From Vitis vinifera (taxonomy: Eukaryota; Streptophyta; Magnoliopsida; Vitales; Vitaceae), in contig NC_081820.1 of the NCBI RefSeq assembly GCF_030704535.1, positions 21,641,001 to 21,705,000 of the forward strand: a DNA stretch of 64,000 nt, in the 5' to 3' direction. Shown piece by piece: positions 20,235 to 64,000 of the stretch. The position numbers and the translations under genes were made by a program. The notes under the pieces were generated by a model. It did not search any database. It was not told the origin of the DNA and worked only from the letters and a program-made list of their open reading frames with translations. The stretch's first letter is position 1. The number at the start of each line of letters is the position of its first letter.

Positions 20235-20235
<1 letters not shown>

Positions 20236-20267: not shown

Positions 20268-20269
<2 letters not shown>

Positions 20270-22300: not shown

Positions 22301-22309
22301 TGGATTTCC

Positions 22310-23110: not shown

Positions 23111-23142
23111 CATGGTGTCTATGTTGATACCTTCATACTCTT

Positions 23143-24460: not shown

Positions 24461-24537
24461 TTATTTTCAACAATCCAAACCATTTTTGGTAACTTTTGGA
24501 AATGAAACAATTCTTTGAAAACTTGTTACCAAAACAA

Positions 24538-34400: not shown

Positions 34401-34983
34401 TTTTCTATGGCTAAAAGAAACCATTAAAGGAATTGGTCAAGCATTCTACCCTTCAATATTTGTTAGATACATCAATTTCCAAGTCTAGCTTTTTGGTTAT
34501 CGAAGACGCGTTTCTCCATCATTTAATTAGACAAATTCTCTTAACTTTTTTCTCATTTCTACATTGACAGTCACCATTTATATATATTTTTGTCCTTAAA
34601 ATCAATTCTTTTGAAAACAATAACATCCATATTTTAGTGCTTGTTTTTCTGGGACAAAAAGAAACCATTAAAGGAGTTGGTCAAACATTCTACCCTTCAA
34701 TCCTTGTTAGATACATCAACTTCTAAGATAGTTTTTCAGTCGTCGAAGACGTGTTTTTCCATCATTCAAAATAAATGCTCTAAACTTTTTTCTCATTTCT
34801 TCATTAATGGTCATCGTCGGTATATATTTTTATATTATTCCAATTAATTATTTTGAAACCAATAATATCCAATTTTCAGTGTCTATTTTTCCATGGCAAA
34901 AAGAAACCATTAAAGGAATTGGTCAAGCATTCCACCCTTCAATCCTTGTTAGATACATCAACTTTCAAGTCTAGCTTTTTATT
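31444..34983. repeat. Satellite array with 3-monomer higher-order repeat (~732 bp)
   Basis: About 15 head-to-tail monomers of roughly 245 bp share the core aaaggaattggtcaagcatt. They fall into three types in the order a-b-c, told apart by ccatggcaaaaag, ctatggctaaaag and gggacaaaaa near the start. Type a monomers begin near 31,950, 32,695, 33,425, 34,155 and 34,890, giving a period of about 732 bp. The later copies are nearly identical to each other; the first two monomers are more divergent. Short open frames recurring here (Pro-Leu-Lys-Glu-Leu-Val-Lys-His) are repeat read-through. The array stops mid-monomer at about 34,983. Confidence 0.92.
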
Positions 34984-35060
34984 GGTAAAATTAATTAATT
35001 TGGATTTATTTTTATTGGTAAAATTTATTGGTATATTAATTAATTTGGATTTATTTTTAT
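34984..35060. other. Junction between duplication units 1 and 2
   Basis: Satellite sequence breaks off inside a type a monomer and joins two direct ~45-bp copies containing taattaatttggattta. The sequence then runs on with homology to 12,666. This is the breakpoint of the tandem segmental duplication. Confidence 0.75.
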
Positions 35061-41849: not shown

Positions 41850-42348
41850 TGTAGTGCCAACGAAAGCTTTGATGCCAACAATGTTAGTTCAAGAACACAA
41901 AGATAAAACAATCACACATACGGTACACGAGGTTTTAACGTGGTTCGGCCAACCATGCCTACGTCCACGGATGAGAGAGAATAATTCCACTATACAATAG
42001 AGAATATTACAGAGGATAGAACCAGATACAACTATTGGGTTCCCGAAACATCCCATGTTTCCCCACTCCTTGTATCCATACCTTACTACGAGCCCTCTCG
42101 CTCCACCAGGTACCTCCCGTTCTTCCTCACATCTCCATCCACTTCGTATAGTCTCTATAGGCCCATCTCCATCTCATAACTTTTTTCCCCTCATGACCTA
42201 GAATATTTATAGAGATATTTCCAACAACTTTCCTTATTTTATAAGGAAGTCTAATATTACAATAATATATCAACCTAGAAATATTCTATACAATATTCTT
42301 TACAAAAAGGAATATTTACTAATTAGGAATTTGGGACAATTCCTAACA
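41850..42348 (-). repeat. TRIM 3-prime LTR
   Basis: 499 bp. The polypurine tract AAGGTGGAGAT lies immediately inside it on the minus strand (about 42349-42360). Confidence 0.9.
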
Positions 42349-42522
42349 ATCTCCACCTTGGACCAAATTACATGAAGTTAATCTTCAATCTCTCCATGAC
42401 ACAAACCTTTTTGTATCATATCACCACGAAAGAGCAATTGACTCCACCTTCAGTGAAAATTCCTTTTGTTTTCATCTTGTGTGCTTTGTGATCTTTTACT
42501 CTTCTAGAAATCTTCAACTCAA

Positions 42523-42534
42523 GCTCTGATACCA
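42523..42534 (-). other. TRIM primer-binding site
   Basis: TGGTATCAGAGC on the minus strand, two bases inside the 5-prime LTR, matches the 3-prime end of initiator methionine tRNA, the usual primer of plant Copia and TRIM elements. Confidence 0.88.
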
Positions 42535-42536
42535 AT

Positions 42537-43035
42537 TGTAGTGCCAACGAAAGCTTTGATGCCAACAATGTTAGTTCAAGAACACAAAGATAAAACAATC
42601 ACACATACGGTACACGAGGTTTTAATGTGGTTCGGCCAACCATGCCTACGTCCACGGATGAGAGAGAATAATTCCACTATACAATAGAGAATATTACAGA
42701 GGATAGAACCAGATACAACTATTGGGTTCCCGAAACATCCCATGTTTCCCCACTCCTTGTATCCATACCTTACTACGAGCCCTCTCGCTCCACCAGGTAC
42801 CTCCCGTTCTTCCTCACATCTCTATCCACCTCGTATAGTCTCTATAGGCCCATCTCCATCTCATAACTTTTTTCCCCTCATGACCTAGAATATTTATAGA
42901 GATATTTCCAACAACCTTCCTTATTTTATAAGGAAGTCTAATATTACAATAATATATCAACCTAGAAATATTCTATACAATATTCTTTACAAAAAGGAAT
43001 ATTTACTAATTAGGAATTTGGGACAATTCCTAACA
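42537..43035 (-). repeat. TRIM 5-prime LTR
   Basis: 499 bp. Starts TGTTAGGAATTG and ends GGCACTACA in minus-strand sense. Confidence 0.9.
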
Positions 43036-43644
43036 TAAATGTCTTCCCTCCGTAACTGCCTTTGACTGAGTGACGATATTCCCATCCAAGATGCATGAAT
43101 CGGGAATATCTCTGAACTCCAAATCTCCAACTATTGCATACGCGTATGGTTGCGAGAAAGGGGATCTGCGATTCGTGTTGCATGGAATGATAGGAATAGA
43201 CTTATTATGAATCTTGTCACCAGTGATCAGCCATGGGCATTTAATGAAAACTACAGAACTAGAATTTGTAGGAACCTCATATGGATACTGATATTTGCTG
43301 TAGTAATAGAGAGGATAGGAGAAACAGTTTCCCATGCCCTTTTTCTTTAGGCCCGGATCCACTACCCGAATGGTATGGCTACTGTAGTTGATGTCTGCAA
43401 CATGGTATTTTCCGCCGTAATCGAGGTTTACCATAGTACGATTATTTTCACAGATCAAGTTCAAGTAAGGATAACCGAGGTCAGACGCATAATCATCTAC
43501 CAATTGGAAAGGGTCACTGATGTTCATATCTCCGCAAGAAGATTTGAAGGTCTGATTTTTATCAGCAACGCAAACAGAAAGGAAGCACACATGGAGGATT
43601 GTTAGGAGCCCTACTCCCACAAGATTTTCTTCCCTCAACATCAT

Positions 43645-45757
43645 AAACTTAGAGAGAGAAAGAGAGAGAGAGATGAGAGATTTGAAGTTGCATATTGTAG
43701 TGATAATTAAATACACAATTGCCGAAACCCAACTCAACTATCTTGACTCATGTCTTCCAAGCTAGTTTTTTGGTCATCGTATTTCTCCATCATTTAAGAC
43801 AAATGCTAAACCAATTTAGACGTCCAAACTTTTCTCATTTTTACATTGCTTGTCACCATCAATTTATATGATTTTATGTCATTCCAATTAATTCTTTTGA
43901 AAATAATAACATTCATAACAAAAAAAAACCATTAAAGGAATTGGTCAAACATTCTACCATTCAATCCTTACTAGATACATCAATGACCCCACGATATTTG
44001 AAATTTCAACATGATACCTTTCTAGACTATCCTTCCTAATAATGCTTTTAAATACGGTTGCACCCATCTTCTCATGAAAAACAAAGATTATTAGTCATAG
44101 CTCCCTAGTGTTTAGTTTTTCTAATTGGCATTTTTGGACATTATCCCTAGCCCATAAATTGTGTAACAAATTTTGGTACCTGTTGTTATAAACATCAACT
44201 ACCCTACAATATTGAATGTTTCTACATTGACACCTTTTTTACTTTACAATTAATTAAGCCAATTTTTAAAATCCAAATTATTCCTAATAATTAAAAGATT
44301 CATTAAAGAATTTAAAATAACAAGTCTTACTTGTTTAGAATCTATTTAGATAGAAAATTTAGAAGGCATAGTTGTGCGCATAAGAATAAGAGTAAAGTCT
44401 TAACATATTATATATTAATTTTGGTTTATTATTTTTTAGTAGTTAAAAAATGATTAAACTCATCAATAAATCATGTATATCAAGTGTTTATTTATTTTGG
44501 AATTTATTTATCTAATAAATTTTTTTAAAGAAATTAAAAGAAAATTCTAAAAAATATTTGTAATTAAGAAAGATTATATCTAAATATTTTTTTCTAGTGG
44601 TTGGTAGAGAGAATGAGAAAGAAAATGATGTTATACTTAATTTATCAAAAAAGAAAATTATGTCATACTTAATTTATTAAAAGAGAATGAGAAAGAAAAT
44701 TTAAATAAGACATTACTCATCAACTACCAAGATTTAAAACCCTTATTTCACTCCGTGTTGACAACATCAACTACCCACTACATTGGATATTGAAAGTTGA
44801 CACCTCCAAAGAGTCCATCCTGTTAATTCTTTTTATAACGGTGGGAAACTAATTACTTGAAAATTTAGGAAGAAATGTAAAGAAAAAAAGAAAAAAAAAT
44901 AGATTTAAGATTAATAACAAATTTAATATTAATAAATTATTTTTATATATTATTTCAAATTTATTTTATTTATTTTCTCTCATTTTTGTAAAATTAAATA
45001 ATTTAAAAACACATTCTAGGTATATTGTCAAATTTTTCATTATATACCTAGATTAATTTAGCACATGTGTCTCATGTGATATTTCCATTTTAACAATACT
45101 TAAAAACAATCCTCACATATTTGATGTTTTTATGCCATTTTGATTAATTCTTTAGGAAACAATAGTACCCAATTTTTCAGTGCCCATTTCTCTATGGCAA
45201 AAAGAAACCATTAAAGGAATTGGCCAAACACTTTTACTCTTCAATTCTTGTTAGATACATCAACCACCTTGCAATGTTTGAAGTGTCAAAGCTAATGTAG
45301 ACTTTCCCAAATCTTCCCAAACGATCCTTCCTAATAATTCTTTTTATGCTTATTTTTTTTTCATGAAAAATAGGGAATCGCCAAAAGAAATAGTTAAACT
45401 TTCCTATCACTATTTAGTTTTTCTAATTGGTATTTTTTGTTTTATTTTATTCCTAGCCCACAAACTTTGTGGAAAATCCTTTAGTGTTTGTTTTTTCATG
45501 AAAAAAAGGAAATCATCAAAGAAATTAGTCAAACATTTCTAATTAGAATTTTCTTGACATTATCCCTAGCCCACAAATTTTGTGGAAAAATTTTTGGTGT
45601 CTATTTTTCCATGAAAAATAGGAAGCCGTCCAAGGAATTAGTCAAACTTTTCTACAATAGTTTAGTTTTTCTAATTGGCATTTTTCTTAACGGTATCCCT
45701 AGTCAACAAATTTTGTGGAAAATTTTTTGGTACCTTTTTTTTCCTGTGAAAAATAGG
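43645..45757. other. Spacer of unit 2: repeat monomers, no gene
   Basis: Matches 20,230-22,940 with deletions. Contains a 245-bp-family monomer at about 43,745-43,985, another near 45,130-45,290, and part of the ~130-bp tandem array from about 45,350. The hAT element landed in this array. Confidence 0.65.
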
Positions 45758-45765
45758 AAACTACC
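45758..45765 (+). repeat. hAT target-site duplication, left
   Basis: aaactacc, identical to 59101-59108. An 8-bp duplication is diagnostic of the hAT superfamily. Confidence 0.95.
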
Positions 45766-45777
45766 TAGGAATGGCAA
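45766..45777 (+). repeat. hAT left terminal inverted repeat
   Basis: 12 bp, TAGGAATGGCAA, exact inverse of 59089-59100. Confidence 0.95.
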
Positions 45778-46015
45778 CGGGCGGGTTTGGGACGGGTCAC
45801 CCCTATCACATTCCCATCCCAAAATATTTAGTTATTTCCCAACCCGTCCCAAACCCGGGGCGGGGCGGGGTGGGGCATTCCCATCCCCGTTATAGAGTTA
45901 AAATTAAAATCTCATCCCCGGCCCGTCTCGACCCGGGTATGTGTTGGCGGGGCGGGGCGGGGCTAGGCTGGGCTGTGCTGGGCTATGCTGGGTTGGGTTG
46001 GGCTGGGCTGGGGTT
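45778..46015. other. GC-rich left subterminal region of the hAT
   Basis: Repeated ggggcggg and acccg-type motifs, then a minisatellite of gggctg/tgctg units (about 45,957-46,012). Such motif clusters are the usual transposase-binding zone of hAT elements. That role is inferred here. Confidence 0.6.
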
Positions 46016-46263
46016 ATTAATGAAACCAAATAGTTGTCAAATATCTTTCTTTAACAAGAACAATTGTAGAGCATTTGAAGATACCCGTTAACACCAATGT
46101 CCTCCATGTTATGAATGCACCCACTACAAAGACAATGAACAACCCAATAACAATAAAGAGCTCCAAAGCAAGTAAATTGCCAATAAAAGGCTTGATGATG
46201 ATGAACAAAAAACCAAATGCCCATTACAAGCTATTCAAATCCAGATTATTTCTGGAAGCAAGT

Positions 46264-46740
46264 TCAATGAATAATACAAAAATTTAGAAGTATGACATCC
46301 ACCTTAGCCTGTTTCTCAAACATTGATGTGGTCCTAAAACATTCATGTATAGACACCTCAGAAGCAGAAGCATCCACAACTCCAGAAACATTGCTTTGGA
46401 CAGATTGCGACATTGCACTTTGAATTATGCACCGATCAGTGTTCCCATTGAACTCCAAAGGCAACACAGATGATTCCATTCTTTCACAACAATGATTGAC
46501 CTTAGAAGAAAATATGAAGTATCTCTACTTTAGTATGTGAGAAATAGGTGGATGAAAAACTTTGAATATCTAAGAGAGCTTTCAATGCAAGTTATACGTA
46601 CCAGAAGAGCCTTGTTCAGAGGTTCTGCATATAAACAAGAGGAATTCATTGTTACAACCTTGAACAATCATAATAAACATGAAGAGAAACAGGAGACTTA
46701 CATCAGCAAAATGCATAGATAATTTGGTAATAAACTAATC
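46264..46740 (-). other. Exon-like sequence of unknown origin inside the hAT
   Basis: On the minus strand a short possible exon (AG|aacctctg...cttctg|GTACGT, about 46,623-46,600) is followed by a longer one (about 46,503-46,305). Together they keep one frame, containing MESSVLPLEFNG and ASASEVSIHECF. Codon content looks gene-like, but I do not recognise a family. It could be a third captured gene piece or chance. Confidence 0.35.
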
Positions 46741-48983
46741 AGTTTTACAGACCCAAAACTTACAACCTATGGTAGGATTACAAATTCCCCAGTTCAGAAG
46801 AACAGTAGTTGGCACACATCTACACAGAATTCTTTATAGTCTCTAAGATTGCAATCTAAGTGAAGTTACTTGTAATAGGGTGGTAATCAGGCAGATAGGT
46901 AGATCCAACTGAGGATAAAAATACAAGCCAACACTGAAAAGTAGGCTTAATTTATATAGCATATTGAGAAGGTTCTATCCAGGTTTTTAGTTTGATGAAC
47001 CAATCAAGTAAAAAAGCAATCTCAGCGCAACAAATTCTATAACCCAACAAGATACACAAGAAACATGCAATTATAAGATATATAATAAAGAATTGGCCTG
47101 TCCTTTTTATCCATAAACAGTGGGGCTATTTGCTGAAATTCTTGACTGAAATAAAGAGCTACATGGGATAAATCGAAGGTGTGATGCAAAAGACAACATT
47201 CTATTCAAACAAAAAGGGATTCGATATACTTTTTGGTCTTAATAATCATGATGAAAAGAGTGATAGGAGAAGTAACTGGTGACCTAGACATTTCACCAGT
47301 TCAAGCAGGTTATAGGATTATTACTCAGATAATTTATTTTTTGGTTTTGAGAAAATGAATAGCCGGATAAACTAAAAAAAATGAGCCAATTCGTGTGTGT
47401 TTATATATCACTAATATACATATTTACACACACATATCTTCAGTAAGATTTTAGCATTTTGTCTCTAACACAGAAACCCAATAGCCCACTTTGCAAGATC
47501 AAGGAAAAACATGGACTCATGATTCTTTCCTTGAGAACTGTCTATTAGTTTATCCCGATATTTTGGCATATTTTTAATATTATAATCAATAAATTTTTTG
47601 AAAAAAAAAATTATTTATCATGTCATGGCCTGATAATGTGAGCTTGCATTTTTCAGGAGCATATAGATGGTTTTTCTTTTAACTTTTATAGTATTGTTGA
47701 TTCTATGAGACAAGTATCATAAATTTAAGATCCTTTCTCCCAAGACAGAAACTAGAGATGACAAAGCAAGGTCTTTGATAAAAAAATATATACATAAGTC
47801 AGAACAGCTTCATCTCAAACTTGACCATGGACAGAAGCTAAGAGCAAGAGAGAGCAAGCTGTGTCCTTACGTGCAGGTGTAGTATATTATTATCAACATG
47901 GTAACATGTGAACTTTTCTATCCTATCACATGTATTTGTGAAAGAAGGCAAAGCCCCAAGCTTACAGTTGAGCAGAAGCAACCCCAATAGAATCATTGGA
48001 TAGCTTTAACCTTATGGCACAAATTATGCTTATAAACAGTACTGATTCCCTACTGTGCAGAATACGTATCTTCAATCTGTACTGGAGAATCAGATCCTAA
48101 GAGAAAACCCTTAGCTAATAAGCCATTTAGTACTATTAAGTTAAGCATAAAAGAGATGCTCTTTTTGGAAAAAAAAAATGAAGAGGGGAAAAACCATTAC
48201 AAGCTCAACATCCTATAATATAGCAAATAAGATTATTGGGTCTAAAACAGGGAAGATTACAATTATACCCCTTCTATGGTATAGCAAATAAGAAACTCTG
48301 GCATAGTCATAATAAACACAAACAAAACTTCCATTAAAAGATATCAAGGCAGTGTCCATTAGTGTAATGGTAGTAAAAGTACTACTATACTAATAACAAC
48401 TGAAAAAATAAAAATAGTATTAAAAACAGCACACCAGGCTCCTTTTTTATCAGTTCTGTAAATCTTGGAAGGATTTCTCATCCTTCATTGTCCTCACCAA
48501 GTTCAATGCAACGAATTATTTTCCTTCTAATAAAACAATTACAACAACAATAACAGAGTTGTGGGTAGGGGCAGGCAGAAACTTGAGCACGATAAGAGCA
48601 CATAGTTAAACTTGATCTTACACAGTTACACTCTACATAATTCATTATTTAATAACAGGCTCCCATGCATCTTTGAGAAAATTATGAACTAAAAGTGCTT
48701 GATACATTTAAAAAAAAACCAAAAAATGAAAAAAGAAAAAAAGAAAAGCACTTTCAAACCAACCACATTCAAAGTGAGTGTTCAATGAGCCTACCCTTGT
48801 CATACCACAAAGTAAGCACACACCATGTTCTCATTCAATATATCAAAGTAATCCATGTTCCAACTCACATTAGATAAAATATTTCATTCCATCATCAACT
48901 ATAAATCAAAAGACTATATTATAAATGGAAAAAAAAATAAACAAAAAAATAAAAGACAGGAAGAAGCTAAAATAGGGAGGAAC
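46741..48983. other. Non-coding interior of the hAT
   Basis: Moderately AT-rich with no convincing exon. The TPR exon expected next in TSS/REC genes was not found here, so the captured fragment ends at 48,984. The stretch may be captured intron sequence. Confidence 0.5.
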
Positions 48984-51687
48984 CTGAATATGATCTGGAC
49001 CAAGTAACTTTTGGTTGCACTTTAGAGGTTTATGAAGATATCTAAGGGCCACATGCACATGTCCAAGGCCTTCCTCCATCATAGCCACATTGATATATGT
49101 CGCAGCAGTGTTTGGATGAGATGGGCCACAAGTGAGATGCAGAAGATACAGAGCGCGTTTTACATATCTGATCAATGAAAAATGTGGCCAGGGGTAAAAA
49201 TCAAATGGAAGCAAAAAGGCCATGGATAAACAGGATAGTATAGAATTCTGTGTTTTACATCGCTTAAAACATTTTGGCAAAAGCATGATAACTTACAGAA
49301 AAAGTTATGATTAGACGGGGTGTTATTTTCAAGTTAATTAAAAAAAAACTATGATTTAGCATTCAAACAAAATAAAAAGTGAAGCATGTTGCTGAAACCT
49401 AATAGAACAAAATGGAATCACTACAGAAGCAATAGTTCCTCCTATAATCCTAATGGTAAGTACATATGTTCCTAGCATAAGAAAGAAACTAGAGCACAAA
49501 CTAGTATGACATTATTGATAAACCCATCAACTACATGCATCCAATAATCAGTATACTTCATGTAAAGCAGTCCTAAAAGACAAAAAGGCCCGATATTAAA
49601 AGAATCAAACAATTAAATAAAAAGAAATGAACAAGCAAAAGAGATATAAGCAGTCCTGGAAGGAGGACATACTACATATATATGACCATACTACCAGGTT
49701 GACTTTTAGGTCAGCAGATCAATAACAATCATATTTTAGTAGCGTCATGTGAAACTTTGTGTCAGCATCTTTGTAACCAATGCACTTTCTAATCTATCCA
49801 ATAGGTACACCAGATTCTCTATTGACAGAACCATATGGCTTTATCAACTATTAGAGAATTGATTAGAAGTTGTTTAGAAGATCAACAAGTAATATGGAAG
49901 ACAAGCTAATATATTATTTCTAAAGTACAGTCCAAATGGTGCACAGAAAACTAAACAAGTGAAATATATTAGATGCCATTGGCAAGTCAAACAAAGGTGG
50001 ATATATTCTTATATTAGTGCTCCAATAGCATTTACATATTAGTGCAAACCTTTGATTCAACATCCTTCATAATCTTTAGTCAAATAAAATTCCTCAATTT
50101 TTTTCCACTGCATATAATTGGGACTTGACTTAACAAAATTATCATTCAAACAGTGTCAGAATAAAGGTTTTAAAAAACTAATTGGCATAGCCATTTCCCT
50201 TTTATTCATGTCAGACTCTCAATAATAAATGACAATATCATCTTATTTAGTGAAAAAAAAACTAAATGACAACAACAATAAAGAAGGGAGGTTTCAAGTT
50301 TGAGTTCCAGTAGCAACAAAAAAAATGGTAAGTATCAAAAAAGGGAAAAACAATATAACTTGACTGCTGAAATTTCAAGCAAGAAAGCACAAATGTTTAT
50401 GAATAATACATGAAAAGTCAATAGTGCATTACACAAGACCAACATACTTGAGAGCCAGTTCAGTGTGTTGAAGTCCGTAATAGAACACAGCAAGATCTCC
50501 ATAACTCTTCATCGTGTCTGGATGATCAAGTCCTAGTTCTCTCTCATTGATGTCCAATGCCTTTTGTTGATAAATTGTGGCCTTGAATTGGGACAACTCT
50601 TGAATTAAGAATAGGCAACAAGTAAAAAAAAAAAAAAACAGCATAGATTTACGTGGAAAACCCTAGATGGGAAAAACCATAGGCAAAGGAGAAAAAAATC
50701 CACTATGTCAAAAATTGGTGCAAAAGGGGAGAGATTCGAACGACTACTACATAGGCATAAACATCACAACCCTAAATCCTATACACCAACGCATAAACAT
50801 CATAACCTGATCCCTGCACTACCACCACAAACCTCCGAAAAAATCTCATAATTTTTCTTTAATACATATGTCGCACTGCAAGCTTTTTGGGTCGGACCAA
50901 GTAGAATTTGGGTCACCAAACTCTAACACATATCATGTAAACTTTCTCAAAGAAAGGAAAACACCAAATATCTTTGAAGGTTAGATGCCTATATAGTGAC
51001 TGGAGCCTAAAAGGCAAATCTATTAGGTGCATTTCTAGAAATAGTTTAACAGAACATTGAGAAAGACAACAAATTTATTATTCTATAACAGAGAAGATTC
51101 CATGAACACCAAGACAAAATGGACTCGTAATGGACCTGATTGAAGTTCCCTGTATGATACAAAACTACAGCAAGGAGGCTGTAAGCTCCTGCTGCCATTC
51201 GATGGTAGGGACCACAAACTGCGACCAGCTTTGCCAGAGCCTGCAAAAACCACAAAAATACAAAAGATAGCATATTAATTTACCAATGAACATGCAAAGA
51301 AAGATTTTTCTACTGCACCCGATTGGTAGTTTACATATAGAAATGACAAACCGATGGACTTTTAAATCAAATACCTTTGTCCCATAGCTGACTGCATCTT
51401 CAAGTTTTCCCTTATCTATAGTTGTTTTTGATGATTCTAGAAGTTGTCGTCCATCTGCAGATGAGCATGCTGCTTGCTGAAAAGAAAAAGAAATGCAATT
51501 AAATCCAGATTATTGAATGGTTTAATTATTTGTAAGACAAGATAAGAAACAATGTGTTCTATTCTTCTATCAAATAGCATAGTTTGTTCATCACCTTATG
51601 CACTAGTACCAAGCTAATAACGTCAAGTTTTTGGAAAGGGTATGGAGAATCCATATCAAAATCCCTTGGAACTAGCTCAATTCCCAC
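48984..51687 (-). pseudogene. Captured fragment of a TSS/REC (clustered-mitochondria family) TPR gene, five exons
   Basis: Exons 51687-51595, 51476-51375, 51240-51136, 50581-50448 and 49167-48984 have GT..AG borders. They join into 206 codons with no stop. The product matches the TPR region of plant TSS/REC proteins, cytosolic relatives of CLU that influence chloroplast compartment size or growth signalling. Recognisable segments are [33 protein letters not shown] and [19 protein letters not shown]. The full protein is about 1400-1800 aa or more, so only a small internal part is present. It lacks the N-terminal CLU domain, the start, and everything after DHIQ. Some conserved residues are changed (for example HKPLKCNQK where relatives have HEALKCNQ). 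It lies wholly inside the hAT element. It may be transcribed as part of a chimera but is not a complete gene. Confidence 0.85.
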
Positions 51688-52081
51688 CTGAAAAAGAAAA
51701 AGGCAGAATCGTCAGCCCTCATTTCCACTGTGAGCAAGAAGACCTGTTATCCATGAGTTTTTCCTAAGCATTACAAATATTTGTTTTAATATATTTCATT
51801 TCCTGGTAGGATTTTCCCTAAACTAGGAAAGAAATTAATTTTGCTTTTAAGAATATATATATATAATTGTTGCCCATCCATGATATAAATATCCTAAGTA
51901 AGTTCTTAATTCTTTTTCCATTCTCTCAACACAACTGAAGCATTCTTCAAATTTATATAAATAACCCGTGATATAATGTTTAAAATCATAAAACTACAAA
52001 ACCCACATATCCAATATAAAAGAATGTGGGGCATGCTGAAAGTTTTGGAACACATAGGCCAATTCCAGCTTGACTGTTTCC

Positions 52082-52525
52082 TTATTGCAGGTGAACTAGC
52101 TAAGTGTAAGCTCCATCAGGGTCCTTGATCAGCTCCCCATGAGTTCCTAAGATTCAATTTTTGAAAATTTTAGTTTGGTGCATAAGTCCGAAGTTCTAAG
52201 ATGAAATTCCAGGTTTAATGTTACCTTGCTCAACGATTTTCCCCTGATAAACCACTGCTATGATATCTGCATTCCTGATAGTTGTCAAACGATGTGCAAC
52301 AACTACAGTAGTTTGATTTACCATTACATTTACTAGTGCATCTTGGACGATGCGTTCAGACTCAGCATCTTGGACGATGCGTTCAGACTCAGCATCCAGT
52401 GCACTTGTTGCTTCATCAAGAAGAAGGATTCGTGGGTTCTTCAAAATGGCTCTTGCAATTGCAATTCTTTGCTTCTGTCCCCCAGATAGCTGAGTTCCAT
52501 GTTCACCCACCATTGTGTCAAGCCC
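52082..52525 (-). pseudogene. Captured ABCB (MDR/P-glycoprotein type) transporter fragment, degraded
   Basis: Two exons (52525-52225 and 52146 downward), joined by a 78-bp GT..AG intron, encode the end of a nucleotide-binding domain of a plant ABCB transporter. Visible are the signature motif [16 protein letters not shown], Walker [14 protein letters not shown] and the H-loop [16 protein letters not shown]. Upstream Walker A and all membrane segments are missing. A 27-bp tandem duplication repeats DAESERIVQ immediately after Walker B, which would distort the D-loop. The second exon has TAG at 52102-52100 and TAA at 52084-52082 where glutamine and glutamate are expected. It is non-functional and was carried by the hAT next to the TSS/REC fragment, in the same orientation. 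Confidence 0.88.
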
Positions 52526-54043
52526 CTGTATACACACCACAACCATTCCAAATATTGCAGGCCTTTATAAGGAAAGAAGAATTGTTTCTCTATTTAACAA
52601 ACAGAAGATTTGTAACTTTTTCTAGCATGCTGAATATGAAGGAATTTCACCATAATAAAAGGAGAAAGAAAGAAAATAGGCTTACCTTGGGCAGTTTGAC
52701 AACCTACTATATATCTTTGTGAGAGGGAGAGGGTGCTTACTTAGCATGAAGTAGGAGACTATCCTACTATATATCCATCCACAAAGAGAGAGATCTCTAC
52801 CCCAATGCCCCAAAAGATCAACCATAGCTCAGCTGCACCCCCAACCAAGATGGGTGATTATCAGGTTTGAGCTGCAATCATCCAAAGGAACCGACTGGCT
52901 GCAACCTAGCGTCTCATCTATAACAATTCTGCATACACCAAATCTTGACCTTCTAATGGAACTGTTTTTTGATTGAATTGGAATTGAAACAAGAGTATAC
53001 AAATGTTGATTTTTCCAACACAACAAGTTCATAATTTGAAGAGGTATGATGGCTGCATAAGTATAGATGTAAAAAAAAATAGCCTTATTCTGAAAACAGA
53101 GAGGATTACCTGCCCAACCATAACCACAACTGAAACCGACCGGCACATTATCAGATGGAAGTTGAGAAAATTCTGGAAATTTTTATAGTTCTCATCAATG
53201 TACTTGGAAATTTGTTGTCACAATAAAAAACCAAAAACAAGAGGTATATTATGAGAGAGTAGAAGCTCAAACCTGTAAAATTTGAATGCAATTCTAAAGA
53301 ATGACTTGCAATGACCACCAAGAAACCATGTCAAGACCCATCAAATGGGTTCCATTTAGTAACAAATCCACCATCTAAAGAACTTTCCTCAAGATTTAGT
53401 AAGACTTGTTATACCAATTTGTATCCACCATATGGTGGGTTTTGGATTTTGATCCCAGTTTTTCTGCTGCTGACAAGGGGAAAACTTATTGAAAACTACT
53501 GCAACTGGGATCCATATTCTGATCAACTAAGCCAAAATTTTCTTCAATTTTGACAGTTAGTATGCAATAGAAATCTAGCATGAAGTTTTTCTTCATCGAT
53601 GTTACTACTAATACAACTCAAATTCCTAAATCCCCTTTAACCAAGCTGGACTTAGAAGGCCTGTTAATGGCCTTTGGACTAGGCTGACCAGACCCACTTC
53701 CTATAACACAGGATGTCAATCTAAAAGAAAAGACCAGGTTCATTTGAGAATTTGTACCTTCCTTTTCAACGCATTGTTGGCTTCAATTAGCATATGTTCC
53801 TACACCCACATTTCCTTACAAGGACTCTACCTTGCAAGTCTTGAACTTGATTGTAAAGAATGTGGTTCTTAGTTACAACCATGGTAATTAACATCATAGA
53901 AGACATGCCAAAATATAATAACCAAAATTAAAATATATCCATAAGCTTAACAACATTGAAAAAAAAAAAAAAAAAGACATTACAAAGAAATTGTTAGCAA
54001 AAAAGAAAGAAAAATGTCTCTAACATCATCTTAAGTAAAAAAT
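52526..54043. other. hAT interior between ABCB fragment and transposase, no gene seen
   Basis: No recognisable exon. Short open frames at 52,829-53,146 and 53,311-53,553 lack family resemblance. It contains the transposase 3-prime UTR at the right edge. Confidence 0.5.
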
Positions 54044-56252
54044 CTAAAGCACAAGTAAATCATCATTTTCATCCATCATTGTGAGTTGGGGCTGTGAGTC
54101 ATGAATTGATGAATCACCTAGTAAAAAAAAACACCAAAAAAAATATTAGAAAACTTTACTAAATATTTTAATAAAAAACAATTCATAAAATTGATAATTA
54201 TGTAAATCGGTTACCTTCTTTTTCCTTCCATAACCAACTTTGAGCACACATTAAGGCCTCCAAAGTATCTGGATGAAGCCTACTGTGATGTTTTGATACC
54301 ACCCTACCACCCGTGCTAAAGACTGACTCAAATGCAACTATAGATACCGGAATAGCATAGATATCACGAACAATCATCTGCAAAGTCGGATACTTTATAC
54401 CATTTGTCTTCCACCAACTTAAAACATCAAAATTTGAATTCCTTGGCAGAATAGACTCCTCTAAGTAATAATCTAACTCCGACTTCGTATGACTTTCTCC
54501 AATGGTACTATGAACAAATAAGTCAAACTTTGAAAGAGGATCTTGTTCATCATAGTTTAACTCCAAAAGAGTTGAACCTGATGAAGTACCATAGGATGAA
54601 GTTTTTTGCCCCAAATTAGACTTTGATTGATACTCAGAAAGCAACTCATAACACATTCCACAGATTTTTTCTATCTCATTTGAAGCTTCAGACCCATACA
54701 TTAGTGGAAAGTAAAACTCTAAAATCTTTATCTTGTATCTTGGGTCAAATATAGCTGCTATTGCCATCACAATATGACACCCACTCCAATACTTGTCAAA
54801 CTTTTGCAACATACTTGATGTCATTGTTTTCACAACATCATTTGAGCATATCAACCAATCATACAATGCCTCTTTGATTTCGCACACTTTGATGAAGAAA
54901 GTATTTGCAGTGGGATAATTTGGTCCTGAGAACAACTCTGTTATGTTGTAAAACAATTTCAATCTTCCACATATTTCCTTTGCCATATTCCATTCTTCCT
55001 CTGATGGCACAACCATGTAGTATTTTTCACGTTGCTTCAAATGTGGGAACACATCTTTATATGTTATAGCAATTGATAACATCAAGTATGTGGAATTCCA
55101 TCGTGTCTTACAATCAAGACTTAACTTCTTATTGCATGGAATACGCAATTGGCGAGCTGCATCTTCAAACTTTTCCATTCTTAATGGGGTTGCTGACCAA
55201 TATGCAACACTCTCACGAATTTTTTTAATTTCTACTTCAATGACATCCAAACCTTCCTTAACAATTAAGTTCAACACATGTGCCGCACATCGCATGTGGA
55301 AAATTTTTCCATTCAATAAGAGTGAATCTCTCAAACATAATTTCTCCACCAAGATATTGATCATTCCGTCATTACTTGAGCAATTATCCACAGTGACTAT
55401 AGAAACTTTTCTATCTATATTCCAATCCAACAAGAAATCCATTAATACATCTGAAAGAACTTCTTTTGTGTGTGGAGGAGGCACATAAACAAACCTAAAT
55501 TAAGAATAAAAAATATCATTAACACAAACAATATCATTAAAGGATCAAATAAAAAAACACTTTGAAAGTTAAAAAAAAAACATAACTAACCTTACAATAT
55601 GATGGTGTAGTAACCAAGACTCATCAATGTAATGTACAGTGACAGCCATGTAGCCTTTCTTTTGATTTGATGTCCACATATCAGTTGTGATAGCAACTTT
55701 ACTTTGAAGTTTCTCTAAGTAGCTAATCATCTTATCTTTCTCAACCTCATAAATCTTCATTATATCACCCTTAATCGTATTGCGGGAAACCATCTTAAAC
55801 AAGGGTTGGAGACTAGTAGCAAATTCTCTAAACCCCACATGGTCAACGATTGAAAGTGGGTACTCATGCAATATAATTGCACGTGCAAGCTTCTCTCTTG
55901 ACATTTCTTGATCAAAGGTAAAACCACCAATTTGAACTTTTCCATGACCTTTTCTCTCTACTGCCAATAATTGTTGCCTAATATCAACATTTCTTCGTTT
56001 CATGCACCTATCTATGTGTACATGTAAGTGTTTTGTCCCATTCTTGCTATCGGCCTTAAGCTTTCCCTTACAATGCTTACAAATAGCATAATCTTGTCCA
56101 TCTTCTATGATTTTATCGAAATCATTCCAAACAACCGAAGTCAACTTTCTTCTTTTAGATACCAAGGTTCCATCAGTAGTTGAAGTACTGCCTGTAATTG
56201 GAGTTGAACCCGCACTTGGCATGGAAAAGTTTTCCCCTTCTTCTGATGTCAT
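54044..56252 (-). CDS. hAT transposase, BED zinc finger and hATC dimerisation domain, 671 aa, intact
   Basis: Cuts and pastes the surrounding element by recognising its termini. Exons 56252-55591, 55494-54215 and 54117-54044 have GT..AG borders and join in frame to 671 aa, normal for RICESLEEPER/DAYSLEEPER-like plant hATs. A BED zinc finger occupies about 40-83 (C58, C61, H77 or H79, C83). The RNase H-like catalytic core has first Asp 191 (ITTDMWTS) and second Asp 257 (IVTVDNCSSN). The motif RCAAHVLNL and the Trp of KTRWNS follow. The hATC domain is about 559-643 (SELDYYLEE ... SWWKTNGIKYPTL ... SVFSTGGRVVS) and supplies the likely catalytic Glu. The third exon gives a short acidic tail. No stops or frameshifts. 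Domesticated relatives exist, but here the gene lies inside matching termini, so an active transposase is the simpler reading. Confidence 0.92.
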
Positions 56253-57079
56253 TTTTCTTAATATAAAATAAAGTCTATAAGTAAAACATTCAAACCTAAA
56301 TTAATAGCCTAAAGCTTGGATAGGGCTTGAAGCAAAGGTTTAAAAGGCAAGATTGTATTTAGGTTAACCTCCAAGAATTGCAAGATGTCAACATAGTTTC
56401 CATTAATAGGAAAATAAATGTAATAGAAAAGCATCGAGGACAGTGCAACCGAAAGACACATGCAGTTTATATGGACAACCCATAGCAAGTGAGAAGAAAA
56501 TAAGAAGAAAATAAAAAAAACAGAAAACAAAGCAAACAAAAGCAAACAAAGAATATTCTAAAAAGTAATAACCAGAAAACAAAACAAAACCTTGAAATTA
56601 GGAATATTTAACCAATATCAAAACTATTAACGGAAAAAATTTGCAAATCAAATTCTCTAAAGACAAAAGAATTTTAGGGAAGAATAATTCTATATTGAAT
56701 GGCACAATATGGAGACCACTAGCACAAAACACATACAACTGAAAAATATTGAATAGGATTTAACATGGAAGCAAAAGTGGCAGTTTCATAAAAATTAAAC
56801 AAGGGCAAATGACTCATTTGTAATAGTTACTAGTAAAAAGCACATGAATATTAGTGTCATTAGATTGTATCTTAGTGTGATACGCACTAGAAATTGGTTC
56901 ATTGATGGAATGCATAGTAGATGTTCAAAGGGAAAAGAAGCACTAGTTAGAGAAATTTAACTTAATCAAACCCAAACAAGGTAGAGTTGAGACTAAAAGG
57001 GTCTTACAACCAACCCTCTTTGACCTACAAACCATATCCCAATTAAGTTAAATATTCAATGGAGTACCCCCAAAAATTG

Positions 57080-58300
57080 AAGAGAGAGAAGAGTGAATAG
57101 AAATCTATCAAATACCAAATGTATTCTAAGGTCCTCCATTTATCCAAAAAAAGATTCTCACATTCCCCTCCCTCCAAACCATCCAAAACAATGCAAGATA
57201 AACTATACACCGAAGTTCCCTTTATCTAGAAGTTTCCAGCATCTTTATTATTTATTTATTTTTTCCTTCCTAATTTGACCTTCAACCCAGCAGCAGCCTA
57301 AAAAGGGAAGACAAAACGTTTGAGCTATCCCAGCTACTCAATCTCTACACCGAAAAAAAAAAGGTTGTGATGTCATCAGCATATAATACACGTGAGGTAA
57401 TCCTCACCCCTTGGTCGCATAAAAGCCAACCCAGCAGAGATGTGTGCCCCCATCCAACCAAGAACACACACACAAAAACAAAAACAAAAAAACAAAAAAA
57501 AGAAAAAAAAAAAAAAAGAAAAGAAGGGCGCAAAAAGACTGCTATACACATCATTTTGCTACACCTCGACAAATAGGAATTGAAATAATGAGTCATATTC
57601 CTGACTGTTTCAATGCAATTTTAGTCCATCCAAATGCCATCCAGAACACAACATAAGAGAGAAAATTCCAAATTTCCTGTTAATGTTATCATAAGCATTC
57701 TCAATAAGAAGTTCTACACCATCTACTAACCCCTAATATCTTTCTAAAATCAAAGCAATCAATGCCACACTGAAATTTTTTTTATCTTCCCCAAGCATTC
57801 CACAACTCCCATAGTCCCACCAGCTTATGAACACTCATTCTTAAAGCAAAGATCTTAGTAAGGGTTGGTAAATATCCCCAACACACCATTGGTTTCTAAT
57901 GCCTTTTATGGCCTCTGTTCCCCCATTAGGAAGAAGAATACAAAAATTACATTCAAATTTCCCTCAAACTCCACGATTTCATGAAAAGATTGAAGAGCGC
58001 CCAACAACACCACTTTAACCATTTTCCAATTCTGTAGCCAATATGCCATTCGAGTCCAGGGCCTCATCACTACTTAGGCCTTTAAGGGCTTGCAGTAAAG
58101 TCCCTCTTAAGTTGAAGTTGCTCAAGGGAATCAATATGGCCAAACTCTGAACCACCCAACCTCCAACATATGGTGTCAGAGTGGAGATTCTGGAAGTAAA
58201 GACCGATGAATGAGTTTATTGATGATCTTCTGATAAAAGAAATGACCTTATCGGTGATCTCATCATCCTCAGTCCACCATTTTGATTTTGATGCTAATGA
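57080..58300 (-). pseudogene. Degenerate LINE (non-LTR) reverse transcriptase remnant
   Basis: Minus-strand scraps in shifting frames resemble plant L1-type reverse transcriptase: GVRITSRVLYADDITTF (the YADD catalytic motif) near 57,420-57,360, AAGLKVKLGR near 57,290, and a Trp-rich C-terminal piece WMVWREGNVRIF near 57,180. Upstream pieces near 57,850-58,080 are more doubtful. Many frameshifts and stops. It lies in the apparent 5-prime UTR intron of the transposase gene. Confidence 0.5.
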
Positions 58301-58698
58301 GCATTAGCCAAATGATGAAAGTGCTACATATTTAGGTCATCGCCCTTGAGCCACAGTGCCCTAGATTTCTAATGTTCACTGATATATTCCTTTCAAACTA
58401 GCCTACTAAAGGTCTCCTTTGCCTCACTACTCTAACCCTAGAAAAATTTGACGATAAGACCCGTTTCTCAATATGAAGGGAGTGGAAGCATTTGACGATA
58501 AGATCTGCTTAGCCCCTATTAAGATTCGCAAGAAACGGATTCAAAACCCTAAATAGCAACCCGAAAACTAATAGAAAAAAAAAATCCTTCAATAATCTGA
58601 AACTGGAAATGGAAAAATCCTAAATCTCGTATCTCTTTCTCGAATTAGAAACGGAATACAACACCAAATCAAGGCATCATTCAACCAAAAAATCTTAC

Positions 58699-58904
58699 CG
58701 GTTTGTAGATACGTGAAGATAATAGTTGTGATTCTTGATTTCTTGTGAATATGGGATAAACAAGGATGAATCGAGAGGAAATGGATTTTCGAATGGATTA
58801 TCTGATGGATTTCTCCATTGAGTGGGAGGAAAAACCCTAGCGTTGACAGAAACGAGAACTGAGAGAAGAAAACCTAAAATGAGGAGAGGAAACTAATATT
58901 TATA
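58699..58904 (-). promoter_or_regulatory. Transposase promoter and non-coding first exon
   Basis: TATAAATA on the minus strand at 58904-58897 lies about 200 bp inside the right end. A non-coding exon would begin about 30 bases on (near 58,870) and end at 58,699 with the donor CCG|GTAAGA. The matching acceptor is plausibly TTAAG at about 56,258, just before the ATG at 56252. The intron would be about 2.4 kb. The arrangement is inferred from motifs alone. Confidence 0.5.
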
Positions 58905-58919
58905 AGTGGGGGGTAAAGT

Positions 58920-59088
58920 AGTAATTTCATATTCGGGGCGGGTCAAATTATAACTACACCCGACCCCGCCCCGAACCCGATTCGGGTTTTTAAAAAAATC
59001 CTGAACCCGGCCCATCCCCGACTGCCATGTTCCTATACCCGTCCCAATAGGGGCGGGGCGGGGCAGGTGACCCGGGAAACCCGCGAAA
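58920..59088. other. GC-rich right subterminal region of the hAT
   Basis: Clusters of acccg/cgggt and ggggcgggg motifs mirror those of the left end in inverted orientation, in sharp contrast to the AT-rich flanks. Confidence 0.6.
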
Positions 59089-59100
59089 TTGCCATTCCTA
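59089..59100 (-). repeat. hAT right terminal inverted repeat
   Basis: ttgccattccta, exact inverse of 45766-45777. Confidence 0.95.
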
Positions 59101-59108
59101 AAACTACC
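59101..59108 (+). repeat. hAT target-site duplication, right
   Basis: aaactacc, identical to 45758-45765. Confidence 0.95.
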
Positions 59109-59406
59109 AAAGGAATTAGTCCATTTTCTACTATTGTTTAGTTTTTCTAGTTGGCATTTTTCTTGATGTCATCTGTAGGCCAAACGTTTTTGTGGAAAAA
59201 ATTTTGGTGCCTATTTTTCCATGAAAAAAAAGAGACCGCCAAAGGAATTAGTCAAGCTTTTCTACCATTATTTAGTTTTTCTAATTGGCATTTTTCTTGA
59301 TGTTATTCCAAGCTTTTCTTCTATTGTTTAGTTTTTTTTTTATATTATCCCTAGCCCATGAATTTTTGATATTATTCCAAGCTTTTCTTGATGTTAAAAA
59401 AAATGA
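59109..59406. repeat. ~130-bp tandem array, right part (unit 2)
   Basis: Continues the array interrupted by the hAT element, with motifs tagtttttctagttggcatt and gtggaaaaaattttggtgcc. It is shorter than in unit 1 and lacks the 23,143-23,800 insertion. Confidence 0.75.
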
Positions 59407-59806
59407 GGGCTTATTTAGTAACTATTTTCACAAGAGATTTTTTTTTTCTCCATAAAAAAAATAAAAAAATACTTTTGAAATCAGAAAACATAAAACAATT
59501 TTTTATCCTTAAAAAAACAATTTTTTACCCTTAAAAATAAAAAATAAGGAATTTTCACAGAACATCTTTTAACTGTTTTCACTTGTTTTTTTAGGGACAT
59601 TTAAAAAAATAATTATACAAATATGAAGAATGATTAAAAATAAAGCACTACATATAAAAGTTATTTTTAAAATATATTTATAAATAAGTTCCAAATTGAC
59701 ATTTGTTCTACAAAACATTAAAGAATAATTTTCAAAGATTGTTTTCTAATTGTTCTCAAAAATTATTTTTCAAAATTGTTTTCAAAAATGGTTACTCAAC
59801 AAAGCC
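59407..59806. mobile_element. MITE with GGGCTT...AGTAAC termini (unit 2 copy)
   Basis: Counterpart of 24,056-24,460, with ends gggcttatttagtaac and gttactcaacaaagcc. Confidence 0.55.
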
Positions 59807-59883
59807 TTATTTTCAACATTCAAAACCATTTTTGGTAACTTTTGGAAAGGAAACAATTCTTTGAAAACTTGTTACCAAAACAA

Positions 59884-60255
59884 GGGACTTATTTGACAAC
59901 CGTTTTCAAGAACAATTTTCTGTTTTTAGAACAAAAAAAAACACATTTGGCAATTAAAAACCATTTTATGTTTTTTATTCTTAAGAATAAAAAATAGGAT
60001 ATTTTTGGATAACGACTTTTAGTTATTTTATGTTATTTTCATTTATTTTTTAAGGGTTGTTTTAGAAAATAATTATATAAACATGTAGAATGATTAAAAA
60101 TAAAGGATTAGATATAAAAATTATTTTATAATATATTTAAAAATATTAAAAACATTTCAGATTCCCAAACAAACTTTTATTCTACAAAACATTTGAAAAC
60201 GGTTTCCAAAAACTTTTCCCTAAAACTGTTTTAAAAAATAGTTACCAAATAAGGC
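59884..60255. mobile_element. Second related MITE (unit 2 copy)
   Basis: Counterpart of 24,538-24,898, with ends gggacttatttgacaacc and gttaccaaataaggc. Confidence 0.5.
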
Positions 60256-62788
60256 AAATGTGTTTTATGAAAACATACATTAATTATTTTTAATCATTTT
60301 CATTTATTTTTGGAGGACTATTTAAAAAAATAATTGTTCACATGTGGAGAATGACTGAAAATAAGGTATCATAATAAAATTAAGTTATTTTTAAAAAATA
60401 TTCAAAAACATAGAAAATAGGTGGAGAATATTTCAAGTTCTAAATAAACTTTTATTCAAGAAGACATTAGAGAATTGTGTGTTAAAACATTTCCAACGTT
60501 CAATACCTATTTTTCCATGGAAAATAAGTTAAGCTTAAATGGTTACCATTATTTCTATCATTTTTGGAGCCATCAACCTACCAAAGTTCAATGCTTCTAT
60601 GTTGACACCTTGGCTCTGCCCTTGCAATAAATTCCTCTAAAAATAACCACCCACTTTTTCACGGAAAACAAGAATTTTTTTATTTTAAATTACGAACACT
60701 AATATTAAAAAATTCATAAATTAATTTTTTTAATAAAAATAATACTATTTTACTATATGTTATAAAACTATAAAGGTTTAGAGCTATGGATACTCTTTGG
60801 AGCTAATCAAGTAGTCCTCCTCCTTACATGTGAATCTCTATGCTTTCTTTCTTTTGGGATAAGTATAGATGCTAACCTATTTCAATATCTTCGTAAAAGT
60901 ATAATTGAATTTTATTGTTAAAAATAAATGATAATAATTAGAAATAATAATAATTAATAATATTTTGTTTAATATGTAACTAAGTAATGTTTTTCATTAT
61001 ATGTAATATTTAGTATAGAGTATTTTAGACTAGTTTTAATTCACTTTACAATTAATTGTGTCTCAATTTTAAAATCCAAATTAATCTTAAGAACTAGAAT
61101 GTATATTAAATAATTTAAAACATTAAGCTCACTTGATTTAGAATATATTTACTTAAAGTATAGTTGTATGCATAAGAGCAGTAGTAAAGTCATATCTCAT
61201 TATGTACCAACTTTGATATATTATTTCTAGTAGTAGTGGAATTTATTTTTGAGTTCCAAATTATTATTTTTAAATTATTAAAGTCATTAACAAGTCTAAA
61301 ACATTAAGCTTTGTTAGATTTAGAGTTTATTTACTTAGTAAAGTTGTGTAAAGAAGAAACTAGCTAACTCATTCATAATAAATTTGGTATGTGAATTTTT
61401 AATATTAATTAGATCAATTTCTAGTTTCATGACTTAGTAATAATTGAATCAATTTTGCTGAGTTTTAAGTATTTAAAAAATTAGTTGATTGCATATATCA
61501 AGTGTTTGATTGATTTGGAATTTATTTATTTAATGAAAAATACACAATTGCCAAAACTCAAGCCAAAGATCTTGAGTTATGTCTTGTAAGTTGTTTTTTC
61601 GGTCATCAAAGACAACAACGTTATCCTATCATTTAAGACAAATGCTTTAAACCAACATGGACATCCAAACATTTTTTTCAATAACATCCATTTTTCGGTG
61701 CCTATTTTTCTATGGCAAAAAAAATAAAAAATAAAAACCATGAAAGGAATTGGTCTAACATTCTACATTTCAATCCTTGTTAGACACATCAACAACCCCA
61801 CAATGTTTGAAGTTTCAATGCTGACACCTTCTTGGAAGATCCTTAATTCCCAATAATTCTTTTGCAAAAACTCATTTTTCATTGTTTGGTCCTTCTAATT
61901 GATACACCATAGACATTATTCCTCTTTGGCATATTTTGTGGAAAAATTTTTGGTGCATCTTTTTCCATGGAAAATTAGTAATGACAACCACCTAAGAATT
62001 AGGCAAGCCTTTCTACCCTTATCTCTATCCTTGTTGGATGCATCAACTACCCCACAATGTTTTGTTTTGACATTTCTATGTTCACACCTTCCTACTCTTT
62101 AAGTCTTATGAAAACAATAACAACCATTTTTCATTGAAAAAAAAATTCCTGAATTAAAGAATCACTCAAGCTATTTTTTGAATATTTCTTAAAGTCTTGC
62201 CGGTAGACATTGCCCCAAAAACCCCACCTAATATTTTTAATTGACACTTCCTAGACATTATTGTAATATTTTTACTAAAAACGCCATAATATTTTTAATT
62301 CTTTTGGTATAAAGTTACTTATCTTTTTAATGAGTCTAACATTATGAGTTTCACTAGATTTAGAGTTTGTTTGCTGGAAAAAAAAGTGTAACAAGAAAGA
62401 AAATTAAGAGAAAAAATAGAAAAAATAAAAAATAAATTTAAAATCAATAAATTATTTCTGTAAACTGCTTCAAACTCATTTAACTTATTTATTTATTTTA
62501 TATAAAATTAAACAATTTTAAAATATATAAATTTTTAACAAATTTTAATTATACTTGATTTTCTTAAAAAAAAATTCTTATTATTTTTTCTTCTTTCCTT
62601 CCTTATTACTTTCCGTAGTCATACAATCTTTCCGATCCGCAAGATCACAAACTTTGACACCTAGTACCTAAGTATTGAATAATTTTGTCAGAGATTAAAA
62701 TAAATAAATAAAACGCTCCATTTATTAAGAAGATGCAAAAGAAAGAGTAGAGCTCGTTCCTCACTCCTTTGCAAAAATTCCAAATCTA
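60256..62788. other. Spacer upstream of the second LRK10L1 gene; no gene
   Basis: Close match to 24,899-27,354, including diverged 245-bp monomers at about 61,560-61,800 and 61,960-62,070. The LRK10L1 promoter should lie at its right end. Confidence 0.65.
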
Positions 62789-63485
62789 ATGTCCATTGAG
62801 GGGCTCATCAGCAGCCTGCAGTACTGCAGAGGAGACTATCAGATGAGCATTTCCTTGAAAATGGTATTCCTCTATCTGTGTTGCTGCTTGACTGTAATAA
62901 TTAGTAGTTTTGCAGAGACTGGAGTGAGCCAAGATGAGTGCATGGTGTCACAGAGTTGCAGCCTCCAGGGCCCCCCCATCCTTTTCCCATTCCGGCTTAA
63001 AGGCCACCAGTACCCAGACCACTGTGGCTGCTCTTTGTTTGAGCTCTCCTGCACACAGAGGAATCAGACGATTCTAGAGCTGCCAGACTCAGTAAACCTC
63101 TTGGTGAAGGAAATAAATTACAGATCTAAGGAAATCCTTGTTCAGGACCCTGATAATTGCTTCCCAAGGCAGTTTCGTAATCTCCATTTAGCTTCCTCTC
63201 CCTTCCAGTTCTTGGATGATTACTCAGAGCCCCTCACCTTCTTCAAATGCCCTTCAAGAAACAGTACTACATATTATGATGGATCCTCTGTGTTACCCAT
63301 CCCTTGCCTTGGAGGGCCTGGCTTCCAAGTTTATGCTGCTTCTTCATTGGGAAACCCCAGTGACGCGTACCTACCATCTTGCAGCAAGATGTACAACGTC
63401 GCAGCAGCTCCTTATTTCGTTATTAGGTCACAGGTAAATGCTACTCAGCTGAAATGGACCAAGTTGCCACACTGCGAAGCAGAAG
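62789..63485 (+). CDS. LRK10L1-type receptor kinase, ectodomain exon; kinase exons beyond the window
   Basis: Unit 2 copy of the 27355-31020 gene. It has the same start options (62789, 62843 or 62861), the same signal peptide and the same donor (GAAG|GTAAGA) after 63485. The open frame without splicing would end at 63514. It encodes the Cys-rich GUB_WAK-like ectodomain, with all cysteines of the other copy kept. About 24 of 241 residues differ from that copy, concentrated after residue 60, and only three silent changes were seen. By analogy the membrane and kinase exons would lie about 1.8-2 kb downstream, outside the window, so the gene's integrity cannot be judged. Confidence 0.8.
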
Positions 63486-64000
63486 GTAAGACATGCAGCC
63501 CCACTGGAAATTAACTGTTGATATACTATCTCAAATCAAAAGTAGTTTTGTTAAAGGTGGTGTTTGTTTTTTTAACCTGAATATAACTTGAGACTTACAT
63601 CATTTGTTTTTATCTTTTTGTTCACTTATTACTTATTTTAAAAAAAATTTGATTGAATAAAAAGAACTAAAATCTTCTTCTAAATACTAAAATTAAATCA
63701 TAATAACTAATTTTTTTTTACTATTTAAAACTTAATAGAAATAAAATATTAAAAAAAACAAACAACTTAATAATTTAACACGATTAAATACTATTTAATC
63801 TTATGTTTTATTTAGAATTAAGTTTAAAAAATCAAATATTTCCTAAAAGTGCAATTGGTGATGTTTTTCTTCAAAATGCTTTCAATATAGTGTTTTTTCT
63901 AACAGTATTTTAAAGATAATCACTTAACAAAAAACATTAAATATGATTTTTTTTTATGTTTTTCAAATTTTACCAAATGTGTGAATTTTTTTCAAAAATA
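63486..64000 (+). other. Start of LRK10L1 intron 1 (unit 2)
   Basis: AT-rich, matching 28,052-28,590 with small indels. No other feature was seen. Confidence 0.6.

Follow-up and report, generated by a model that had tools for sequence, protein, structure and literature searches.

Hosts other than the present one aside, gene-capturing hAT transposons are already known from grapevine itself: the accessible text of Benjak et al. (2008) describes Hatvine-6 (hAT-6_VV) of Vitis vinifera as elements of variable length that hold exons, introns and non-genic host DNA between shared ends, with the transposase and ends in common and the remainder often unique or common to few elements (PMC2528002). In maize, where gene capture by hATs is described as rare, Ds2 and Ds-l4 have hAT ends around intron-bearing gene pieces from another chromosome (PMC3260210), and Pack-hAT elements, a Pack-TYPE group of maize and rice, are described as coding DNA captured between hAT ends (PMC8903248). 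A large fungal hAT (∼9.5 kb) has amplified a host histone H3 gene beside a hAT domain; the same source, in its accessible part, cites hATs as long as 7,144 bp besides the ∼9.5 kb that it reports, and the sizes given below therefore stand at the large end for hATs (PMC6710886). A search of the open-licence literature at the level of titles and abstract openings found no hAT family of 9–25 kb. The accessible text of a 2026 review of plant gene capture does not contain 'hAT' as a whole word (PMC13317346), nor was the term found in that of a review on giant transposons.

Here we describe a gene-carrying hAT element in a 64,000-nucleotide stretch of Vitis vinifera DNA (the window, C16:21641001-21705000; Table 1). 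A preliminary description had recognized its limits, its 12-bp inverted termini and a perfect 8-bp target duplication, all of which were confirmed, TAGGAATGGCAA being exact at both ends and AAACTACC at both flanks. Within the window TAGGAATGGCAA has 13 matches at up to two mismatches, against 8.1 expected, and 6 of 100 shuffled sequences reach that number; the only exact matches are the two element ends. Exact pairs of an 8-bp duplication with a 12-bp inverted end number three in the window, as compared to two across 60 shuffles together. One of the other two such pairs begins within a (TAT)n tract. All nine GGGCGGG motifs of the element lie in its outer 450 bp and none inside. The unfilled site claimed for the paralogous unit 1 is likely: when the flanks are joined without the element, their best alignment (84.9%) is to 22526-23111 in that unit and crosses the junction, but weaker alignments in other registers cross it too, because the insertion site, like the paralogous site, sits within ∼113-126-bp tandem repeat arrays. 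Judged from these alignments, the register of the empty site is likely to be correct, though it is not unique.

Table 1. Coordinates of the element and its parts, numbered from the first base of the window.
Feature	Position	Strand	Remarks
Whole hAT element	45766..59100	-	13,335 bp; minus strand holds transposase, REC1 and ABCB pieces
Left target site duplication, 8 bp, AAACTACC	45758..45765		Exact match to right copy
Right target site duplication, 8 bp, AAACTACC	59101..59108		Exact match to left copy
Left 12-bp terminal inverted repeat, TAGGAATGGCAA	45766..45777	+	Exact
Right 12-bp terminal inverted repeat, TAGGAATGGCAA	59089..59100	-	Exact
Left subterminal G+C-rich stretch	45778..46015		Five GGGCGGG in first 250 bp, none in interior
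Right subterminal G+C-rich stretch	58901..59088		Four GGGCGGG (both strands together) in last 200 bp
Transposase exon 1	55591..56252	-	Weak BED zinc finger, just below Pfam cut-off
Transposase exon 2	54215..55494	-	hAT RNase-H-like and dimerisation domains
Transposase exon 3, coding, stop codon excluded	54047..54117	-	Exon joining
Captured piece	46334..46489		Donor C18:5931311-5931466
Captured piece	46487..47933		Donor C18:10655283-10656735, 97.8%
Captured REC1 (REDUCED CHLOROPLAST COVERAGE 1-type) piece with introns	47931..52067	-	Donor C15:20910352-20914470, 96.35%
REC1 exon	51595..51687	-	Protein match and donor alignment
REC1 exon	51375..51476	-	Protein match and donor alignment
REC1 exon	51136..51240	-	Protein match and donor alignment
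REC1 exon	50448..50581	-	Protein match and donor alignment
REC1 exon (TPR)	48984..49167	-	Pfam, protein match and donor alignment
Captured piece of an ABCB transporter gene (first nucleotide-binding domain)	52067..52702	-	Donor C10:9574615-9575223
27-bp exact tandem duplication within ABCB exon	52338..52391	-	One copy in donor
Captured piece upstream of transposase	56953..58438		Donor C17:4388384-4391086, two blocks, 94 and 97%

The transposase had been called intact, and as a reading frame it is: its three minus-strand exons encode 671 residues with no internal stop. The product has Pfam matches to PF14372 (1.7e-30) and PF05699 (1.2e-29) and is similar to the Hermes transposase over ∼455 residues (3.2e-15), and its best protein matches are from Vitis vinifera (96-97% identical). 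The window copy shows three of the characters by which the hAT superfamily is recognized, namely the 8-bp duplication, short terminal inverted repeats (12 bp, exact) and the transposase domains. As to a further one, the catalytic D, D and E, alignment to Hermes places D191 opposite D180 and E610 opposite E572, and the second D (TVDN) is shifted by one residue; these Hermes residues are catalytic.

The genome was searched with the termini for other copies, as the preliminary description had proposed, and with the transposase. With the window's own matches included, there were at least 43 to the left end, at least 40 to the right end and at least 40 to the transposase; a search of viral contigs with the left end gave no match. 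Ends were paired by eye, and 20 long pairs were chosen and read at both ends, leaving aside seven short pairs (∼1.3-5.8 kb) and two long ones (C14:4.70 Mb and C4:25.83 Mb). Every one of the 20 sisters has inverted ends with at most one mismatch at each, and the 8-bp duplications are exact in 16, carry one mismatch in three and are lacking in one (C5:1.88 Mb). Transposase matches lie inside 19 of the 20, among the matches listed. The sisters span 9,052-24,739 bp, with a median of 11,973 bp when the window copy is counted. Large size is therefore a family trait, and the window copy, whose size had been thought unusual, is only the 14th smallest of 21.

Pieces of a TSS/REC gene and an ABCB gene with introns had been reported from the element; both are present but represent two of at least five donors. 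Positions 46,334-52,702 of the window are tiled by four donor loci, two on chromosome 18 and one each on chromosomes 15 (REC1) and 10 (ABCB), with neighbouring donors overlapping by 3, 3 and 1 bp at the junctions, and in all five donor loci, spread over four chromosomes, account for ∼7.9 of the 13.3 kb. The REC1 piece, 4.1 kb with its introns kept, forms a single contiguous alignment to its donor, with an identity of 97.1-98.7% in every 400-bp bin when gapped columns are excluded, and its five exons joined give 206 stop-free residues whose nearest proteins are REC1-type. The ABCB piece likewise keeps an intron, and its donor is located where four ABCB-like matches cluster (C10:9.57-9.62 Mb). 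The two genes are not adjacent at their native loci, which are on separate contigs (C15 and C10), and among the matches listed no end match falls within 1 Mb of a donor. A protein search for a full-length Vitis REC1 returned no Vitis protein among the best 120, and the donor was found by genome search; in none of the best 120 of 7,973 protein matches is REC1 combined with an ABC domain. Another ten ORFs in the element lack any Pfam match above its cut-off, and the same result was obtained for the ORFs at 57.3-57.6 and 58.0-58.3 kb. At window position 46336, a 764-bp stretch of the sister at C4:16.78 Mb is missing at a TAG/TAG microhomology. We rejected a precisely lost intron as the source of this difference, which is flanked by two TAG motifs and past which the chromosome 18 donor continues; it looks like a deletion.

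The recurrence of the cargo was followed in 11 of the 21 elements, 10 sisters and the window copy, that were read whole. REC1 pieces (at least 45% identity) occur in all of these except C7_3.61, jointly covering residues 291-757 of a REC1 protein in differing subsets, and ABCB pieces occur in five; the recurring REC1 and ABCB pieces shown are all on the transposase strand. REC1 DNA was also matched in two sisters outside the 11 (C4:16.78 and C14:18.86 Mb). The same cargo thus recurs with different flanks, in sisters with target duplications of their own, and, with donor and captured copies coexisting in the genome, the transduplication suggested beforehand is supported. Moreover, C5_26.22 shares 99.0% identity with C15_1.88 over 10.65 kb, and C16_20.86 shares 99.5% with C1_12.98 over 12.27 kb, the target duplications differing within each pair; because these cargo-laden sisters on different chromosomes are so alike, the elements must have multiplied with cargo aboard. 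Ten ORF pieces from sisters on C7, C10, C1 and C14 were compared to Pfam, and seven were above the cut-off, one was below it only and two were unmatched; the domains matched were kinesin, L7Ae/S12-type ribosomal, kinase, P-type ATPase, FAT, Met-tRNA synthetase and malectin. An extra 8.1 kb in C1_12.98 was considered as a nested LTR element and rejected, as it has no internal repeat and its ORFs match P-type ATPase and FAT domains.

Variable length, shared transposase and ends, and host gene cargo are features that this family has in common with Hatvine-6, whose description comes closest of all, but Table 2 of that description gives a TIR of 13 bp and a TSD of 9 bp, as compared to 12 and 8 here, and lists no element lengths (PMC2528002). 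The one-bp offsets are possibly a matter of delimitation, and the present elements may be the same family; because these lengths differ and the comparison was made by published description, we do not assign the window copy to Hatvine-6. The maize counterparts are non-autonomous Ds elements, with a modal length of ∼1 kb and one example of 7,344 bp for Ds-l4 (PMC3260210). Coding DNA lies between hAT ends here as in Pack-hATs, which are, however, non-autonomous by definition, the Pack-TYPE pipeline classing as autonomous whatever matches a transposase (PMC8903248), whereas the window copy has a stop-free transposase ORF of 671 residues. The fungal element shares large size and a host gene next to its hAT domain, but it has a single intronless gene and is RIP-damaged (PMC6710886). 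Gene capture, which the preliminary description held to be exceptional in a hAT, was published for grapevine hATs in 2008 (PMC2528002), and the tiling of several donors is a useful addition to it.

We are confident that the element belongs to a hAT family of Vitis vinifera with many large-bodied copies, into which parts of host genes, introns as well as exons, were copied as DNA from several chromosomes, and whose cargo is most likely passenger sequence. In the mechanism that we propose, transposase-driven excision would leave a break in an empty or partly degraded element, and the break would be repaired by copying a sister element, with template switching to unrelated genomic sequence. Foreign filler would then remain between conserved ends, later rounds could add, trim and shuffle it, and the enlarged element would move as a unit given a working transposase. 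The retained introns, the contiguity of the pieces, the direct joins between donors, the 764-bp deletion between TAG motifs and a patchy collinear loss fit capture during such repair, which we infer from sequence comparison. The 1-3 bp junction overlaps are probably little above chance for blunt joins and make a weak argument for template switching. Excision-break repair has also been proposed for Ds elements, in the accessible text of that report (PMC3260210).

It is unlikely, in our view, that the element is currently active as an autonomous transposon and that its cargo gives functional chimeric transcripts. The ORF is intact, and with the exon limits of the window copy applied it is stop-free in 7 of 11 elements, the window copy included. 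Nevertheless, nine substitutions are private to this transposase by the criterion used when it is compared to 19 Vitis copies, and two of them fall at otherwise conserved positions: S609F, which adjoins the Glu opposite Hermes E572 and where S is found in 16 of 17 Vitis sequences and 13 of 13 from other plants, and R624H, where R is found in 13 of 16 Vitis sequences and 12 of 12 from other plants. Neither was found in the nine sister elements readable there, the tenth being frameshifted. The earlier suggestion that the element may still move itself thus keeps its open reading frame, but because of these two private changes present self-mobility of this copy appears doubtful; its mobilisation in trans is possible. 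The cargo also argues against function. The ABCB piece is interrupted by a stop and has its 27-bp duplication neither in common with the donor nor with four sister pieces, and the REC1 exons differ from the donor at 12 codons (7 nonsynonymous and 5 synonymous), which together fit passenger DNA; most likely the cargo is decaying and without protein function. Chimeric products might be seen in Vitis gene models, of which P0007, P0009, P0018 and P0024 join the family transposase to REC1 exons and others join it to other host domains. By our own count, with domains that we classed ourselves, a non-transposase Pfam domain is present in 14 of 41 Vitis entries among the transposase matches listed, as compared to 4 of 79 others. 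Such fusions may be annotation read-through, however, and they serve as a warning that grapevine gene models joining transposase and host domains may stem from elements of this type.

Far less probable is that two separate short hATs flank ordinary chromosomal DNA, through macrotransposition or an assembly join, and that the enclosed genes are plain genes. The same ends do exist ∼1.3-1.5 kb apart as short pairs in the genome (paired by eye), and in Ac/Ds alternative ends can mobilise the DNA between them. Yet no internal end clearly above chance was found, the donors are parts of genes on different chromosomes whose copies abut with no filler, twenty other elements are built alike (19 with a duplication that is exact or has a single mismatch), and a sister with the same cargo but other flanks was found, all of which upholds a single element. 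Least probable of all is capture through RNA as a retrocopy, for which one may cite the intronless histone H3 of the fungal hAT (PMC6710886, accessible text) and the two cargo patches that adjoin in the window where the C4:16.78 Mb copy has 764 bp more, but the gap between the TAG motifs is deletion-like, the ABCB intron is retained and the REC1 alignment runs unbroken across exons and introns.

Beyond the DNA-copied family as such, we tentatively propose, being a little short of persuaded, a giant hAT lineage (median 12 kb, maximum 24.7 kb) in which the ends, and often an open transposase, are retained as unrelated host pieces are serially stacked on both sides of the transposase. If true, this lineage would be a self-mobile cargo accumulator exceeding the hAT sizes quoted in the literature consulted, and the set of donor-copy junctions would let the capture mechanism be read step by step. 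As a single assembly contains donors, junctions and many sisters, one can follow directly in which order captures took place, which types of junction arose and what became of the cargo, and tracing them in the grapevine assembly would test the gap-repair model. As for time, substitutions accumulate at ∼6.5e-9 per site and year; by this rate, a donor divergence of 2% corresponds very roughly to 1.5 million years, and the 0.5-1% between sisters to ∼0.4-0.8 million years.

The ends of the hAT element also recur as closely spaced pairs elsewhere in the same assembly, among the matches listed (see table), and these short pairs are likely candidates for non-autonomous derivatives. A 20.6-kb sister element on chromosome 1 (C1:12978972-12999590) contains nearly the entire structure of C16_20.86, the related long copy on chromosome 16, with 8.1 kb of extra sequence close to its left end that holds P-type ATPase and FAT-domain pieces.

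Within the captured chr17-derived piece, the 285-bp section 56953-57237 includes a dispersed repeat, since a genome search returned many further copies of it at 70–78% identity. At position 57237, the chr17 donor is longer than the window piece by about 1.2 kb.

The window contains two tandem units ∼22.4 kb apart (12664-23111 versus 35030-45760 plus 59396-64000), 97% identical over the first 6.7 kb and 88–93% thereafter, whose kinase genes we take to be receptor-kinase-like. The element lies within ∼113–126-bp tandem repeats (22329-23059 and 45447-45654). A separate array with a 242-bp period (31464-34980; 14.4 copies) has a higher-order spacing of ∼731 bp.

Positions of kinase ORFs (window) and short end pairs (G000, the assembly containing the window)
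Feature	Location	Spacing of ends
Kinase ORF	16962-18167	
Kinase ORF	39322-40257	
Further kinase ORF	29845-31020	
Short end pairs	C6:14.957, C8:2.036, C6:18.377 Mb	∼1.3–1.5 kb
Short end pairs	C14:28.096, C4:20.011, C16:17.710 Mb	∼1.3–1.5 kb

Two more exact 8+12-bp duplication/inverted-end pairs occur within the window (15578-28208 and 18480-40842), one of which begins inside a (TAT)n tract. A minus-strand ORF (8667-9983), presumably MSH3-like, resembles the beginning of a MutS-homologue gene.
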